This document shows positions 999-5,883 of a stretch of 64,000 bases of DNA, one piece after another. Position 1 is the first letter of the stretch; each line of letters begins with the position of its first letter. A program made the position numbers and the translations under genes. This DNA comes from Bacillus sp. FSL K6-3431 (GTDB taxonomy: Bacteria; Bacillota; Bacilli; Bacillales; Bacillaceae_C): the NCBI RefSeq assembly GCF_038002605.1, contig NZ_JBBOCT010000001.1, positions 2,666,001 to 2,730,000 of the forward strand. Reading direction: 5' to 3'. Under the pieces are notes generated by a model. It was given only the letters and a program-made list of their open reading frames with translations, was not told where the DNA came from and ran no database searches.

Positions 999-1021
999 CA
1001 AAATAAAGCGTAGTCAATTCA

Positions 1022-1065
1022 AAACACGTACATTACATCGCATTTTATTATTATTGTTCGGTAAA
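1022..1065 (-). promoter_or_regulatory. PurR operator: inverted pair of PurBoxes
   Basis: The minus strand of 1052-1065 reads TTTACCGAACAATA, 13 of 14 matches to the Bacillus PurBox AWWWCCGAACWWTH. A weaker inverted box lies on the plus strand at 1022-1035 (AAACACGTACATTA, 11 of 14). Exactly 16 bases separate them, the spacing known for PurR operators. The site lies just upstream of the purA -35 element, so PurR repression of purA is inferred. Confidence 0.7.
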
Positions 1066-1179
1066 TAAAATTTATGAAAACACCTAAAAAAAAGAAATTA
1101 ATCTAAAACCTAAAGAGATTAACAAACATAATAGATGTATGGTAGGAATTAAATAGAGGTGGAGAAAGATGACATATTA

Positions 1180-1257
1180 ATGAATAAAAGAGATTTTCCA
1201 ATACCTGAAACAGATATTAATTGTGTTGGAAAAGTTTTATTGGGTGGTGTGAATTAG
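1180..1257 (+). other. 25-codon ORF, probably a fragment
   Basis: An ATG at 1180 opens a 25-residue reading frame ending at TAG 1255-1257, with a GGTGGAG-like ribosome site 18 bases upstream next to an earlier ATG that stops after three codons. I do not recognise the peptide. It sits between the purA control region and an IS3 scar, so it is as likely to be a gene fragment as a real small protein. Confidence 0.15.
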
Positions 1258-1302
1258 TAAATTCTTATTCAGGCGGAAAAACCCAACAATCCAGTGTTGT
1301 CA

Positions 1303-1465
1303 TTTATTCGAAGGCACTTTCACACCCTTGAACAACTGGCTCTTGAACTTTTCGATTATGTTCATTGGTACAACAATATCCGGATGCATAGTTCAATCGA
1401 TTATTTAAGTCCAATAGAATATAGAAACCTATCTTTTAAAAAAACTGCTTGATTTAGTGTTGACA
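1303..1465 (+). pseudogene. IS3-family transposase (OrfB) C-terminal remnant
   Basis: The plus strand translates to the end of an IS3/IS150-type OrfB integrase: HTLEQLALELFDYVHWYNN, then RMHSSIDYLSPIEYRNLSF, ending at TGA 1450-1452. The rest of the transposase is missing. The bases after the stop (gatttagtgttgacatacca) look like the element's terminal repeat. A second, more damaged copy of the same end is at 46230-46380. No left end is visible here, so this is a scar and not a mobile element. Confidence 0.75.
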
Positions 1466-1507
1466 TACCACCTTTTAAATTAGGAATTAGGTAAAATCAC
1501 CTTCATG

Positions 1508-1537
1508 TTGACCACCTAACTTCATTTAGGATACAAT
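1508..1537 (+). promoter_or_regulatory. Promoter of the fused anthranilate synthase gene
   Basis: TTGACC (1508-1513) and TACAAT (1532-1537) are 18 bases apart. Transcription would start near 1544, so the TRAP triplets that begin at 1555 lie almost at the 5' end of the mRNA. Confidence 0.65.
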
Positions 1538-1554
1538 ATAAATTGTCAGAAGAT

Positions 1555-1614
1555 TAGAAGAGTTGAGGCTAGGTATTCCTAGATTGAGAAGAGTTTAGTT
1601 GAGCTGAGTTTGAG
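1555..1614 (+). promoter_or_regulatory. TRAP-binding site: eleven (G/U)AG triplets in the trp leader
   Basis: TAG or GAG triplets start at 1555, 1560, 1565, 1570, 1580, 1586, 1591, 1596, 1601, 1606 and 1612. Neighbours are separated by 2 or 3 bases, except for one 7-base gap (1573-1579). The 11-subunit TRAP protein (MtrB) is known to wrap RNA with 11 such triplets when tryptophan is bound. The match in number, spacing and position before a trp gene is very strong. The wide gap lies inside a CTAGG-TATT-CCTAG mini-hairpin (1569-1582), which may fold out or compete with binding. Confidence 0.85.
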
Positions 1615-1646
1615 ATTCCCCAATTTAATACACTCTAACTTTTTTT

Positions 1647-1673
1647 CCTCATCTCCTTTATTAATTAAGGAGG
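1647..1673 (+). promoter_or_regulatory. Shine-Dalgarno-sequestering helix, with alternative pairing to the TRAP site
   Basis: CTCCTT (1653-1658) is perfectly complementary to AAGGAG (1667-1672), the ribosome site of the TTG start at 1682. CCTCATCTC (1647-1655) instead can pair 8 of 9 bases with GAGTTGAGG (1560-1568), which holds TRAP triplets 2 and 3. The two helices share bases and exclude each other. The inferred model is that TRAP binding frees CTCCTT to hide the ribosome site and shut translation. A run of seven T (1640-1646) may also allow termination. Confidence 0.6.
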
Positions 1674-1681
1674 AAATTAAT

Positions 1682-3850
1682 TTGAGTATCTTATCGAGCC
1701 AAATCCCTGTTCAAGATGAAATTCATTATTTTACCAATGAAGGAATTGGAATAACACGAAGAAAGTGCCTTCTTGATGTAGAGACAGCAACTGATACGAT
1801 CCTTAAAGAGGTCGATAGTAGAAAAGGAGCTTTATTTTCTAGTCGTTACGATTATCCAGGGCGATATTCGCGTTGGGATGTTGGCTTTTATAACCCCCTA
1901 ATAGAAATTCGTGCAAATGGAAAAGAGTTTAGTATAGATGCTCAAAATCAAAGGGGAGAAATATTACTAACGCCAATCTCTAAAAAGTTAAAAATGGTAT
2001 CCGAGATAAGCTCACTGGTTATTAACCAGACATCTTTAACCGGAACTATTCAGGACGGAAAAGATGTTTATGATGAAGAAAAGCGAAGTCATCAACCATC
2101 TATTTTTACAGTTATAAGAGCAATTAAATGTCTTTTCGGATCCAATGAAGATTCATTTCTTGGTCTTTATGGTGCATTTGGATATGACTTAGTTTTCCAA
2201 TTTGAACCGATGGAATTTAAACATGATCGTGACGTTGGTGATTCGGACATTGTACTGTATATACCCGACGAATTGATCGTTGTAGATCATCAATTAAATA
2301 TTTCCTACCAATTATCATACGAATTTACCTTTGAAGGAAAAAATACAACAGGAATTCCAAGGGATGGGAGACTGTCAGAATATATCTATTGTTCAAATAG
2401 TAAATCGAAAGGTTATCAACCTGGGTATTACACTGAAATGGTTCGAGAGGCAAAAAAATCCTTTAAAAAGGGAGATCTATTTGAGGTCGTACCATCACAT
2501 ACATTTTATGAGAAATGTGAAAGTGCTCCTTCAGAGGTGTTCAAACGTTTGCAGAGTATAAATCCTAGTCCTTATGGATTCATAATAAATCTAGGAAACG
2601 AATTTTTGGTTGGATCATCACCTGAGATGTATGTACGAGTAGAGAATAATAGGGTTGAAACATGTCCTATTTCAGGAACAATTAAACGTGGGAAAAATGC
2701 AACAGAAGATGCAGATCGAATTCTAGAATTATTGAACTCTTCTAAAGATGAAGCAGAGTTGACGATGTGTACAGACGTTGACCGTAATGACAAATCCAGG
2801 GTATGTGAACCTGGTTCTGTAAATGTCATTGGAAGAAGACAAATTGAAATGTATTCGCATTTAATTCATACAGTCGATCATGTTGAAGGTAAACTGCGTC
2901 CTGAGTTCGACGCTTTAGATGCTTTTCTTACACATATGTGGGCAGTAACTATAACTGGAGCTCCGAAACGAGCTGCTATTCGCTGGATAGAAGATCATGA
3001 ACGTTCTCCAAGAGGCTGGTATGGCGGTGCTGTAGGATGGTTTAATTTCAATGGGAATATGAATACGGGGTTAACATTAAGAACAATGAAAATTAAATAT
3101 GGCGTAGCTGAAATCAGAGTTGGTGCAACCCTTTTATATGATTCCGTCCCTGAGGATGAAGAACAAGAAACGCTAACTAAGGCAGCAGGGCTTGTTCAGG
3201 CAATTCGAGAAACTCAAAAGATTGATAACAATATACCTAATAAGATTTATCAATCAGGTAAAGGAAAGAGAGTTTTGCTTGTTGACCATGAAGATTCGTT
3301 TGTTCATACACTAGCAAATTACATGAAACAAACTGGAGCTGAAGTGTTAACTTTACGATCACAATTAGCACGAGAAGAAATAAAAAGGAATCCTTCTTAC
3401 GATTTAGTCGTACTATCCCCTGGTCCTGGAAAACCAGCACAGTTTCATTTAGCAGATACGATTAATATATGTTTAGAAAAGGATTTGCCGATATTTGGTG
3501 TATGTTTAGGGCTTCAGGGGATTGTGGAGTATTTTGGTGGATCTCTTAATATATTAGAATACCCCCAACACGGTAAACCTTCCATTGTCAGACAAACTCA
3601 GGACAGTTATTTATGGAGTGGCCTTTCCGAAAAGTTTAAAGTCAGTCGGTATCATTCTTTGTATGCAGAAAAGGTACCAAAAGATATTGAAATAATAGCA
3701 TTATCTGATGATGATGTCGTCATGGCAATTCAGCACAAGGAGCTTCCTATTTCGGCTGTTCAATTTCATCCAGAATCCATTCTGACAACGAATAACGATG
3801 TTGGATTTAAAATAATTGATAATGTTATAAAACAATTAAACAATAAATAA
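1682..3850 (+). CDS. trpE(G): Fused anthranilate synthase, TrpE-TrpG type (722 aa)
   Basis: This makes anthranilate from chorismate and glutamine, the first step of tryptophan synthesis. The TrpE part (about residues 1-510) contains PISGTIKRG, TDVDRNDKSR, HTVDHVEG and TGAPK. The glutamine amidotransferase part (about 525-722) has the oxyanion motif SPGPGKP, the nucleophile in GVCLGLQ (Cys608), and FHPES (His696, Glu698). The fused layout and motif wording resemble rhizobial TrpE(G), not the separate trpE and pabA/trpG of Bacillus subtilis. I chose the TTG at 1682 because AAGGAGG lies 8 bases upstream; the longer frame from the TTG at 1610 would run through the TRAP site. It is apparently monocistronic, with no other trp genes beside it. 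A PhzE-like enzyme is possible but less likely given the TRAP leader. Confidence 0.93.
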   Translation: MSILSSQIPVQDEIHYFTNEGIGITRRKCLLDVETATDTILKEVDSRKGALFSSRYDYPGRYSRWDVGFYNPLIEIRANGKEFSIDAQNQRGEILLTPISKKLKMVSEISSLVINQTSLTGTIQDGKDVYDEEKRSHQPSIFTVIRAIKCLFGSNEDSFLGLYGAFGYDLVFQFEPMEFKHDRDVGDSDIVLYIPDELIVVDHQLNISYQLSYEFTFEGKNTTGIPRDGRLSEYIYCSNSKSKGYQPGYYTEMVREAKKSFKKGDLFEVVPSHTFYEKCESAPSEVFKRLQSINPSPYGFIINLGNEFLVGSSPEMYVRVENNRVETCPISGTIKRGKNATEDADRILELLNSSKDEAELTMCTDVDRNDKSRVCEPGSVNVIGRRQIEMYSHLIHTVDHVEGKLRPEFDALDAFLTHMWAVTITGAPKRAAIRWIEDHERSPRGWYGGAVGWFNFNGNMNTGLTLRTMKIKYGVAEIRVGATLLYDSVPEDEEQETLTKAAGLVQAIRETQKIDNNIPNKIYQSGKGKRVLLVDHEDSFVHTLANYMKQTGAEVLTLRSQLAREEIKRNPSYDLVVLSPGPGKPAQFHLADTINICLEKDLPIFGVCLGLQGIVEYFGGSLNILEYPQHGKPSIVRQTQDSYLWSGLSEKFKVSRYHSLYAEKVPKDIEIIALSDDDVVMAIQHKELPISAVQFHPESILTTNNDVGFKIIDNVIKQLNNK

Positions 3851-4014
3851 TAGAAGAGCAAAGTAGATGAGTACAAGGTTAGATATTAATCGTATAGTAT
3901 TTTTAGGTAGTACTTATGATATATATTAATATGTTTAACCTCTCAGAAAAAGATTTATAGGAAAAAAGATACTGGATTGTCCAGCAGGAGGATGCTCCTT
4001 TCCAGCTTTAGTGT

Positions 4015-4128
4015 GAAGTAAAGATTGCCAAAATAGAAGCGGGGCACCACCGTTCAAGTTATCCAGACTTTTGTAAACTTGCATTTAACATTCAGGTATT
4101 GCCTCATGAATCAGATGATAATGGTTAA
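4015..4128 (+). pseudogene. Possible Xre-type helix-turn-helix remnant
   Basis: One plus-strand frame reads KIAKIEAGHHRSSYPDFCKL and on to TAA at 4126. This resembles the second half of an Xre/Cro HTH domain (an S/A-K-I-E-x-G-x-R-x-P-S pattern). There is no start, and a stop lies just upstream in frame. The rest of 3851-4244 shows nothing else I can name. Confidence 0.3.
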
Positions 4129-4256
4129 GGAACAGGTACGAGAAAAGTAATGTTCCAGAGGGATATGTTAATAAATAAAACGAAGGTAATAGTCTGTAAT
4201 AACTTTTCTAATCTTTTATTTACATTTAAAACTACATCTATTAATTGAGAGGATTA

Positions 4257-4288
4257 TTCAACCAGTGGTATTATTACCACTGGTTGAA
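4257..4288. terminator. Perfect 14-bp hairpin after the minus-strand sugar operon
   Basis: TTCAACCAGTGGTA (4257-4270) is perfectly complementary to 4275-4288 with a 4-base loop. It lies 43 bases past the stop of the AllA-like gene and probably ends that operon. It has no strong T run on either strand, so it may act mainly as a 3'-end stabiliser. Confidence 0.5.
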
Positions 4289-4330
4289 TGAAAATGGCTT
4301 TACTTCTAACGAAATATCAATAATTAATTC

Positions 4331-4846
4331 TCAAAATTCAAATGCTACTTTTGCATTATTTTCAAATTCAACCCAAGGATTCATGATTTCATCTCCAAAT
4401 TTATCCGGCTTTCTTTCAATAGCAAAGAAATAAAGTGTATCTTCAGTTGCCGGATAAGCTGGACTATGCCACACCCCTTTTTTTATAATAATTCCTTGGC
4501 CTTGTTTTAAATGAAGGCATTTTACAAGGCTAGGATCGGGCTTTTCATCTGGGTTTTCTAGATCTTTGGATAATGCTAATGGTTGAATAATATCCCCTTG
4601 GAGGGCAATTAATAGTTCTTCTCTGCTATCATGTCTTTCCATGGATTCAATAATAAATGGTCGTCGTTTAGTATTAACCAACCCCATCCCAACTTCAGTG
4701 TCCACTTCCATCATCTGTATATAATTCCAACACTCCCATCCATCGCCAACTTTCGTGGGTGAACTTGCGGGTACTTCTACAATTTTTCCAAACGGTTCAA
4801 AGTTTGCAACAGTTAAAGCCTCAATTTTTATTGTCACTTTTCTCAT
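4331..4846 (-). CDS. AllA-like (ureidoglycolate lyase family) cupin protein, 171 aa
   Basis: The sequence matches the AllA/ureidoglycolate lyase family: an N-terminal EALTVANFEPFGKIVEVP, WECWN, then RHDSREELLIALQGD and the HSPAYP region that forms the beta-barrel core. AllA itself splits ureidoglycolate to glyoxylate and urea. No other allantoin gene is nearby. Instead it is the last gene of a sugar-import operon, 8 bases after the binding-protein gene. Its substrate is therefore probably a sugar-derived acid or aldehyde; that is inference. Family assignment is good, the reaction unknown. Confidence 0.75.
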   Translation of the reverse strand: MRKVTIKIEALTVANFEPFGKIVEVPASSPTKVGDGWECWNYIQMMEVDTEVGMGLVNTKRRPFIIESMERHDSREELLIALQGDIIQPLALSKDLENPDEKPDPSLVKCLHLKQGQGIIIKKGVWHSPAYPATEDTLYFFAIERKPDKFGDEIMNPWVEFENNAKVAFEF

Positions 4847-4854
4847 CCTTTATA

Positions 4855-5883
4855 TTAGAAGTCAAAATCTTCTACATTGTCTTTCGTAATTATTTCAGTC
4901 CCAATTAGTATAAATTTATCCTGAACCTTCACTTTTCCAACAGTCGGAATATCCATCCCATCCTTGATTTCCTCTCCATTAGAGAGCGCATTAAGAACAT
5001 ATACAGTTGCATATCCTAGTTTAGTAGGATCCCATGTTACAAGTTGTTCGATAGTCCCACTTTTTACGTATTTCTCAACCAGACTAGGCACAGCAAAACC
5101 AGTAATTGTTATTTGTCCTTTTTTAATCTTACCTTCTTCTACCGCTCTTTCCACCGCTTGAGCCGCAGCTGGGGCTTCTGCTCCGGCAAAACCAACAATT
5201 CCATTTAAATCTGGATACGTACTAATTAAATTTTGAGCATTTTCAAATGCCTTTTGTTGGTCATCATTACTGGAGACAGTTGCTACAACTTCAATATCAG
5301 GGTATTCTGCTTTTAGTAACTCCTTAGCTGCTTCCACTTTATCAGTTTGGTTCTGTGCAGCCAAACTAGCTACCATAAAAGCAAGCTTACCTTTTCCACC
5401 AATTTTTTCTGCTGTCATTTTTATAAATTGCTCACCTAACTCCCCATCAGTTGCAGGCCCAATATAATAGTCCCGACTAGTTGTCGGAGCGTCACTATCC
5501 CAAGTGACCACATTTACATTTTTACTTTTGGCAGTATCAAAAATAGAAGCCACCGCTGTTGGATCATTAGGTGCTATTCCAATACCTTTCACTTGTCTTG
5601 TCAACATATCTTGGATCATATTAATTTGTTGTGATGAATCTGTAGTAGATGGCGCGTTAAAAATTACATCTACTTCTAAATCCTTGCCAGCTTGCTTTGC
5701 CCCTTTCTCAGCAGCGGAATAATAAGCTGGTCCTATTGATTTAGGATTTATGAAGAAACTTTTATCAGAACTTGAAGAATTACTCTCTTTTTTAGTATCA
5801 CCTTCCGTTTGTCCTTGCGTTGAACATCCAGCTATTAAAATAACAATTAAAACGACTGATAGAATTTTGCTTATATACTTCAC
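4855..5883 (-). CDS. LsrB/RhaS-type sugar-binding lipoprotein (342 aa)
   Basis: This is the extracellular solute receptor of the ABC importer encoded upstream. It has a lipoprotein signal with lipobox LIAGC (Cys20), a Ser-rich linker, then a periplasmic-binding fold of cluster B (Peripla_BP_4). It resembles LsrB (autoinducer-2) and RhaS (rhamnose) more than RbsB: KSIGPAYY near the start, VTWDSDAP, PDLNGIVGFAG, TWDPTKLGY and the C-terminal KDNVEDFDF parallel LsrB landmarks. The Asp-Gln pair that LsrB uses to bind AI-2 appears as Ala-Gln (AAQNQ), so a different pentose-like or deoxy-sugar ligand is likely. Confidence 0.85.
   Translation of the reverse strand: MKYISKILSVVLIVILIAGCSTQGQTEGDTKKESNSSSSDKSFFINPKSIGPAYYSAAEKGAKQAGKDLEVDVIFNAPSTTDSSQQINMIQDMLTRQVKGIGIAPNDPTAVASIFDTAKSKNVNVVTWDSDAPTTSRDYYIGPATDGELGEQFIKMTAEKIGGKGKLAFMVASLAAQNQTDKVEAAKELLKAEYPDIEVVATVSSNDDQQKAFENAQNLISTYPDLNGIVGFAGAEAPAAAQAVERAVEEGKIKKGQITITGFAVPSLVEKYVKSGTIEQLVTWDPTKLGYATVYVLNALSNGEEIKDGMDIPTVGKVKVQDKFILIGTEIITKDNVEDFDF

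Follow-up and report, generated by a model that had tools for sequence, protein, structure and literature searches.

A putative TRAP-type leader on a stand-alone fused anthranilate synthase gene in a Bacillus whose trp operon lies behind T-boxes

What controls a fused anthranilate synthase gene (trpEG) in a Bacillus genome that also carries trpE and a trpDCFBA operon? An initial annotation of 64 kb of Bacillus sp. FSL K6-3431 DNA (the window, meaning the whole stretch analysed), made from the sequence alone, had proposed mainly translational control by TRAP (MtrB). Our analysis makes it likely that the leader is a TRAP target that hides the Shine-Dalgarno sequence (SD) when tryptophan is ample, ahead of the gene for an extra enzyme, in a genome whose trpE and trpDCFBA lie behind T-boxes. 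In all that sequence can reveal (the site, mtrB, the gene type, the T-boxes and the recurrence in relatives), the leader appears to be of the TRAP type.

TRAP-regulated leaders carry about 9–11 NAG repeats, mostly (G/U)AG, separated by short spacers. A triplet-chain scan found eleven (G/T)AG triplets ahead of trpEG (Table 1), starting at 1555, 1560, 1565, 1570, 1580, 1586, 1591, 1596, 1601, 1606 and 1612. The annotated number stands; the near-regular spacing of 5–6 bases holds for nine of the ten steps (5, 5, 5, 10, 6, 5, 5, 5, 5 and 6), the fourth being too long. In repeat number and spacing, the leader thus resembles known TRAP leaders. The chain score, in which (G/T)AG triplets are counted, steps of 5–6 bases are free and other steps up to 13 are penalised, reaches 10.2 and was matched by none of 5000 dinucleotide shuffles of 1540–1690 (best shuffle, 7.4). 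No other chain in the 64 kb window, on either strand, scores 5 or more, and 60 shuffles of the entire window gave a top score of 7.2.

Table 1. Positions of the trpEG gene and of the leader elements within the window
Feature	Position	Strand	Remark
Promoter-like pair TTGACC-18-TACAAT	1508..1537	+	candidate; transcript start inferred near 1545
TRAP-type site	1555..1614	+	eleven (G/T)AG triplets, 10-base step between 4th and 5th
Triplets 2–3, GAGTTGAGG	1560..1568	+	possible partner of 1647–1655
Inverted repeat CTAGG-TATT-CCTAG	1569..1582	+	includes triplets 4 and 5, fills the 10-base step
CCTCATCTC	1647..1655	+	pairing potential with triplets 2–3
Anti-SD CTCCTT	1653..1658	+	complement of the SD
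Shine-Dalgarno AAGGAGG	1667..1673	+	first six bases complementary to 1653–1658
Fused anthranilate synthase gene trpEG	1682..3850	+	722 aa, TTG start

The complementarities described in the annotation are also real. CTCCTT is an exact complement of the AAGGAG of the TTG start (1653–1658 against 1667–1672), and CCTCATCTC pairs with triplets 2–3 at eight of nine positions, giving a duplex of −9.5 kcal/mol. The inverted repeat within the site, at −5.0 kcal/mol when folded as a 27-nt piece, could compete with TRAP. Folded as a single strand, the leader (1544–1690) is no more stable than its shuffles (z +0.90). We found no GC-rich terminator in it besides the SD hairpin itself, and no T-box (RF00230) match at E ≤ 1 in 1000–5000, before the fused gene of the window. 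The promoter-like pair is only a candidate, because such matches (11 observed, 13.0 expected) are no commoner than in shuffles.

The gene itself is, as the annotation held, a stand-alone fusion of the rhizobial type. Its product exceeds the curated cut-offs of NF010081 (1103.5 bits; cut-off, 645) and TIGR01815 (1031.1 bits; cut-off, 739.15), with Anth_synt_I_N, Chorismate_bind and GATase domains. The SD lies 8 bases before the TTG at 1682, and the M-S-(I/L)-L beginning that this start gives is found in the proteins of several relatives; the frame stays open upstream to another TTG at 1610. Among the matches listed (best 120 of 7995), the closest proteins share 87, 81 and 72% identity and the remainder at most 66%, and many are named from Paenibacillus, Pseudalkalibacillus and other bacilli. 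A plasmid protein search gave a top identity of 54%, with no bacilli among the best 20 of 892 records, and a peptide-pattern scan of the genome contigs returned eight loci at 33–38% identity.

The surroundings of the gene show signs of decay. Just 5' of the promoter-like pair, 1261–1449 is what remains of an IS-type transposase gene (rve_2, 58.7 bits), and this fits arrival or rearrangement of trpEG. Directly after the gene, 3867–4007 holds a remnant of a Methyltransf_11-type methyltransferase of congeners (50–53% identity over 45–48 residues, the frame interrupted by stops); the start of this remnant carries a weak chain of triplets (score 3.4). Further on, a long inverted repeat (4246–4300, CAACCAGTGGTA-TTA-TTACCACTGGTTG) looks perfect by eye and is absent from the terminator-scan output.

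Is the regulator present, and what controls the rest of the pathway? The annotation had named a missing mtrB as grounds for rejection; the gene is there (G000:C1:180477), and the encoded protein matches TRAP chains of known structure, retaining the RGTDTRFHHSEKLD stretch and KIRG. The gene ahead of it was read by eye as folE/mtrA. The genome holds four TrpE-like genes: trpE (L104), which scores over its cut-off and lies downstream of two T-boxes; a gene (L003) with a match to an amidotransferase just downstream, the pair being read as pabB-pabA; the fused trpEG; and a weaker match (L005). Judged by sequence, trpEG would be an additional anthranilate synthase beside the trpE of the same genome. 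The sole trpC sits in the trpDCFBA operon (L106), in which trpF, trpB and trpA were named by eye and which is preceded by two further T-boxes. All four T-boxes have TGG at what we take to be the specifier position. TRAP-like chains stay below score 5 in L106 (best 3.6), L104 (4.4, after trpE) and L003 (2.6). Matches to the Bacillaceae-1 RNA (RF01690) adjoin trp and mtrB genes (L106:4283-4349, − strand; L104:1453-1519, + strand; L108; and others). The trpP gene (L120) has five triplets that reach its SD region; since trpP and trpEG both carry triplets, at least two genes of this genome are likely TRAP targets. With T-boxes before trpE and trpDCFBA and TRAP-type triplets before trpP and trpEG, the two anthranilate synthases therefore appear to be governed by different sensors.

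The triplet score looks specific in the loci surveyed. In a survey of 5286 tiles of 200 bases from fetched loci, mostly chosen for the genes concerned and with some sites counted more than once, 51 reached a score of 5; 50 of them coincide with the start of trpEG, trpD/trpE, trpP or a methyltransferase gene, and one falls inside a pabB-like coding sequence. A chain at L041 was rejected as a TRAP site, being coding sequence. A profile (R1) built from 17 sequences, the window site among them, gave a single match at E ≤ 0.5 among the candidates scored in its own genome, the 1555–1614 site (4.1e-5). Across 26 sources, with the window itself in the model, it matched 15 places at E ≤ 0.1 and three more at E 0.05–0.74. 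At least seven of 16 congeners have a match at E ≤ 0.5, with 150 of about 1400–2000 first-look candidates scored per genome. R1 is no exhaustive count of TRAP targets, because it gave trpP for G007 alone against triplets in 15 of 15 trpP leaders. Six KAGNN units, taken as a strict pattern with a single mismatch allowed, had no match in the genome; this pattern misses the window's own uneven site.

Within the genus, two of 16 genomes have the fused gene. Fifteen genomes carry mtrB and the same fifteen carry trpP, the single genome lacking the one being the single genome lacking the other. All 15 trpP leaders have chains scoring 4.6–6.6 whose triplets run into the SD region (0–3 of 300 shuffles as good, each). 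Leaving the fused gene aside, the top TrpE-like locus shows two T-box end motifs in each of the 16 genomes and a chain of score 5 in none. The other fused-gene congener, G014, has its trpEG behind a T-box and without a triplet chain, and its protein is 63% identical to that of the window. In G010, G006 and G012, TRAP-like triplets extend across the ribosome site and start of a methyltransferase gene (Methyltransf_11; L110, L111 and L112), at about 1485–1570 of each locus (profile E 4.6e-4, 0.0021 and 0.0125; equalled by 0, 0 and 3 of 1000 shuffles). By its sequence this gene could be a further TRAP target, and the array may reflect N-terminal residues because part of it is coding.

Do the triplets persist before the same gene in more distant relatives? 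The fused gene was found at E ≤ 1e-150 in 19 of 397 genomes of the order, which with G014 gives a set of 20. All 20 carry mtrB, to be weighed against a high family baseline (29/34). Nineteen leaders are readable, a contig end cutting L063. A TRAP-like site without a T-box (score at least 5.0) precedes the gene in 14 (the window, L046, L048, L051, L052, L053, L054 and L056–L062; scores 5.2–12.0), and each of the 13 arrays outside the window was equalled by 0–1 of 300 shuffles. One leader has a weak chain (L055; 4.2, 0/300), three have a T-box (L014, L047 and L049) and one has neither (L050; 2.0, 118/300). An array without T-box is thus kept at this gene in 13 of the 18 other readable leaders, in several families of the order, and the free drift of triplets that the annotation had set as a counter-argument is not seen. 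L048 and L060, with six counted triplets each, are borderline because stable TRAP binding is reported from seven repeats upward in a passage of PMC4027176.

The trp operons of the same genomes offer a context for trpEG. In the 19 fused-gene genomes other than the window's, a TRAP-like site stands ahead of the first operon gene in 18 (scores 5.6–10.2), that gene being trpD in 16 and trpE in two; G014 has two T-boxes instead. The natural reading of these operon loci is that trpEG would supply anthranilate synthase where the operon is without trpE, under a second TRAP site. Two layouts place both genes together: in G403 (L048/L102) and G195 (L046/L092), trpEG follows trpDCFBA in the same orientation, its triplets starting 14 and 946 bases past the TrpA-like frame, respectively, and one operon can therefore contain two TRAP-like sites. 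The window's genome alone among the 20 combines TRAP-type triplets on trpEG with T-boxes on the trp operon. The mirror image occurs in G047 and G296, with a TRAP-like site before trpD and a Trp T-box before trpEG. In these two trpEG leaders (L047 and L049; 3668–3978, − strand) the T-box is followed by seven triplets that cover the ribosome site (score 5.0; 2/300 shuffles), and to judge from sequence the T-box and TRAP might exert double control of one mRNA. On balance we favour, with some reserve, a tryptophan pathway split between two RNA sensors in the window's genome, TRAP acting on trpEG and trpP and T-boxes on trpE and trpDCFBA, a division mirrored in G047 and G296. TRAP would then sense free tryptophan and the T-boxes the charging of tRNA-Trp, and the two signals would control separate parts of the pathway.

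To what extent does the leader behave as a switch on the SD? The trpEG leader contains both an anti-SD/SD complement and a competing triplet pairing. In transcripts ending at 1655–1668, folding predicts the triplet region as the partner of the anti-SD (P 0.77–0.97); after the SD has emerged, the SD hairpin is favoured at equilibrium without TRAP (P about 0.75–0.79). Occupying the site lowers SD exposure from 0.12 to 0.04, a change equalled by 23 of 60 shuffled spacers, and the SD hiding by 16 of 60. The window's switch would thus rest on the order of folding during transcription. The spacer-shuffle test covered 13 leaders, the window included; L046, L050 (no array), L055 and the T-box leaders were set aside. 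In the occupied state, mean SD exposure across the 13 was 0.06, against 0.24 with shuffled spacers. The change was reached by 0–3 of 60 shuffles in L054, L056, L058 and L059, and there was practically none in L052, L053 and L062. In L046 the triplets lie over the SD and start instead. These models suggest that a hidden SD recurs in fused-gene leaders and that some lineages have a well-predicted switch. The annotated claim of mainly translational control is accordingly plausible: both pairings are possible as described, but the SD is predicted to be mostly hidden without TRAP and the predicted change falls within the range of shuffles.

We infer TRAP binding, its direction, translation as the level of control and the role of the extra enzyme as follows. 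At ample tryptophan, TRAP, encoded elsewhere in the genome, would wrap the RNA of 1555–1614 round its rim. The wrapped triplets would be unavailable to CCTCATCTC, the CTCCTT/AAGGAG hairpin would shut over the SD, and less of the fused anthranilate synthase would be translated. When tryptophan is scarce, the anti-SD of the nascent RNA would stay paired to the triplets, and ribosomes would load. Against the model stand the SD that is mostly paired at equilibrium without TRAP and the chance level of the promoter match; the exceptions to a TRAP leader on the fused gene are the congener G014, with its T-box, and L050, with neither element.

Translation is a plausible level for TRAP control of trpEG, to judge from folding. 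TRAP might instead bind and affect mainly transcription (termination or pausing) or mRNA stability, not the ribosome site, which we consider unlikely. A run of seven Ts follows CTCTAAC, which can pair with triplets; the SD hairpin itself scored as weakly terminator-like in the terminator scan; the predicted TRAP-dependent change in SD exposure is small; and a passage of PMC4347634 credits TRAP with roles in both transcription and translation. The pairing ahead of the T run, however, has a long loop and is weak without the upstream triplets (−3.8 kcal/mol). It consumes triplets, and TRAP would therefore prevent it; the scan gave no further terminator-like hairpin on the + strand of 1200–4400.

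Far less probable is a relic site, in which the gene arrived with its leader, TRAP binding is weak or inconsequential and the T-boxes run the pathway. The presence of the fused gene in only two of 16 congeners, the 63% identity of the other copy and the flanking integrase-type transposase remnant and decayed methyltransferase, which fit arrival or reshuffling, speak for it, whereas none of the eleven triplets has been lost, the SD complement is whole, the trpEG frame is full length, and the genome has both mtrB and a TRAP-type trpP leader. That a purine-rich tract arose by chance we give almost no credence: none of the 5000 shuffles was as good, the array recurs before the fused gene in several families, and we found no support for it.

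The preferred reading, an SD-hiding TRAP target, would make trpEG a new target for an established regulator, in a pathway unusually wired to two sensors. It would add a recurrent TRAP target to those named for B. subtilis in passages of PMC4347634 (the trp operon, trpG and trpP). A search of open-access literature, by titles and abstract openings and with subscription papers mostly outside it, found no report of TRAP control of a fused trpEG. The comparison among relatives suggests that TRAP and T-box control have changed places on these genes from one related bacterium to another. This organism would allow a side-by-side comparison of the two sensors in a single pathway of a single cell, as to what each senses and why both are retained.

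Multiple T-boxes before trpE in bacilli are already published, according to a passage of PMC2494555. Such tandem Trp T-boxes are found here before trpE and before trpDCFBA; unlike that trpE, the window's fused gene is without a T-box, whereas that of G014 has one. The B. subtilis trp leader has eleven (G/T)AG repeats (passage of PMC4027176), and a structure change hides the ribosome site of trpE (passage of PMC4347634, citing Du and Babitzke 1998). Our leader resembles that of trpEDCFBA, as far as those passages describe it, in its eleven repeats, its predicted SD-hiding structure change and the anthranilate synthase gene downstream. It differs in preceding a stand-alone fused trpEG, in being short and without a clear terminator, and in belonging to a genome whose trp operon proper lies behind T-boxes. 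In B. subtilis, trpP and trpG are translation-level TRAP targets (titles of references in PMC4347634). The trpP of the present genome is like them, with triplets extending into the SD region, whereas the trpEG triplets stop 52 bases before the SD, which would be hidden by a hairpin rather than by direct cover.
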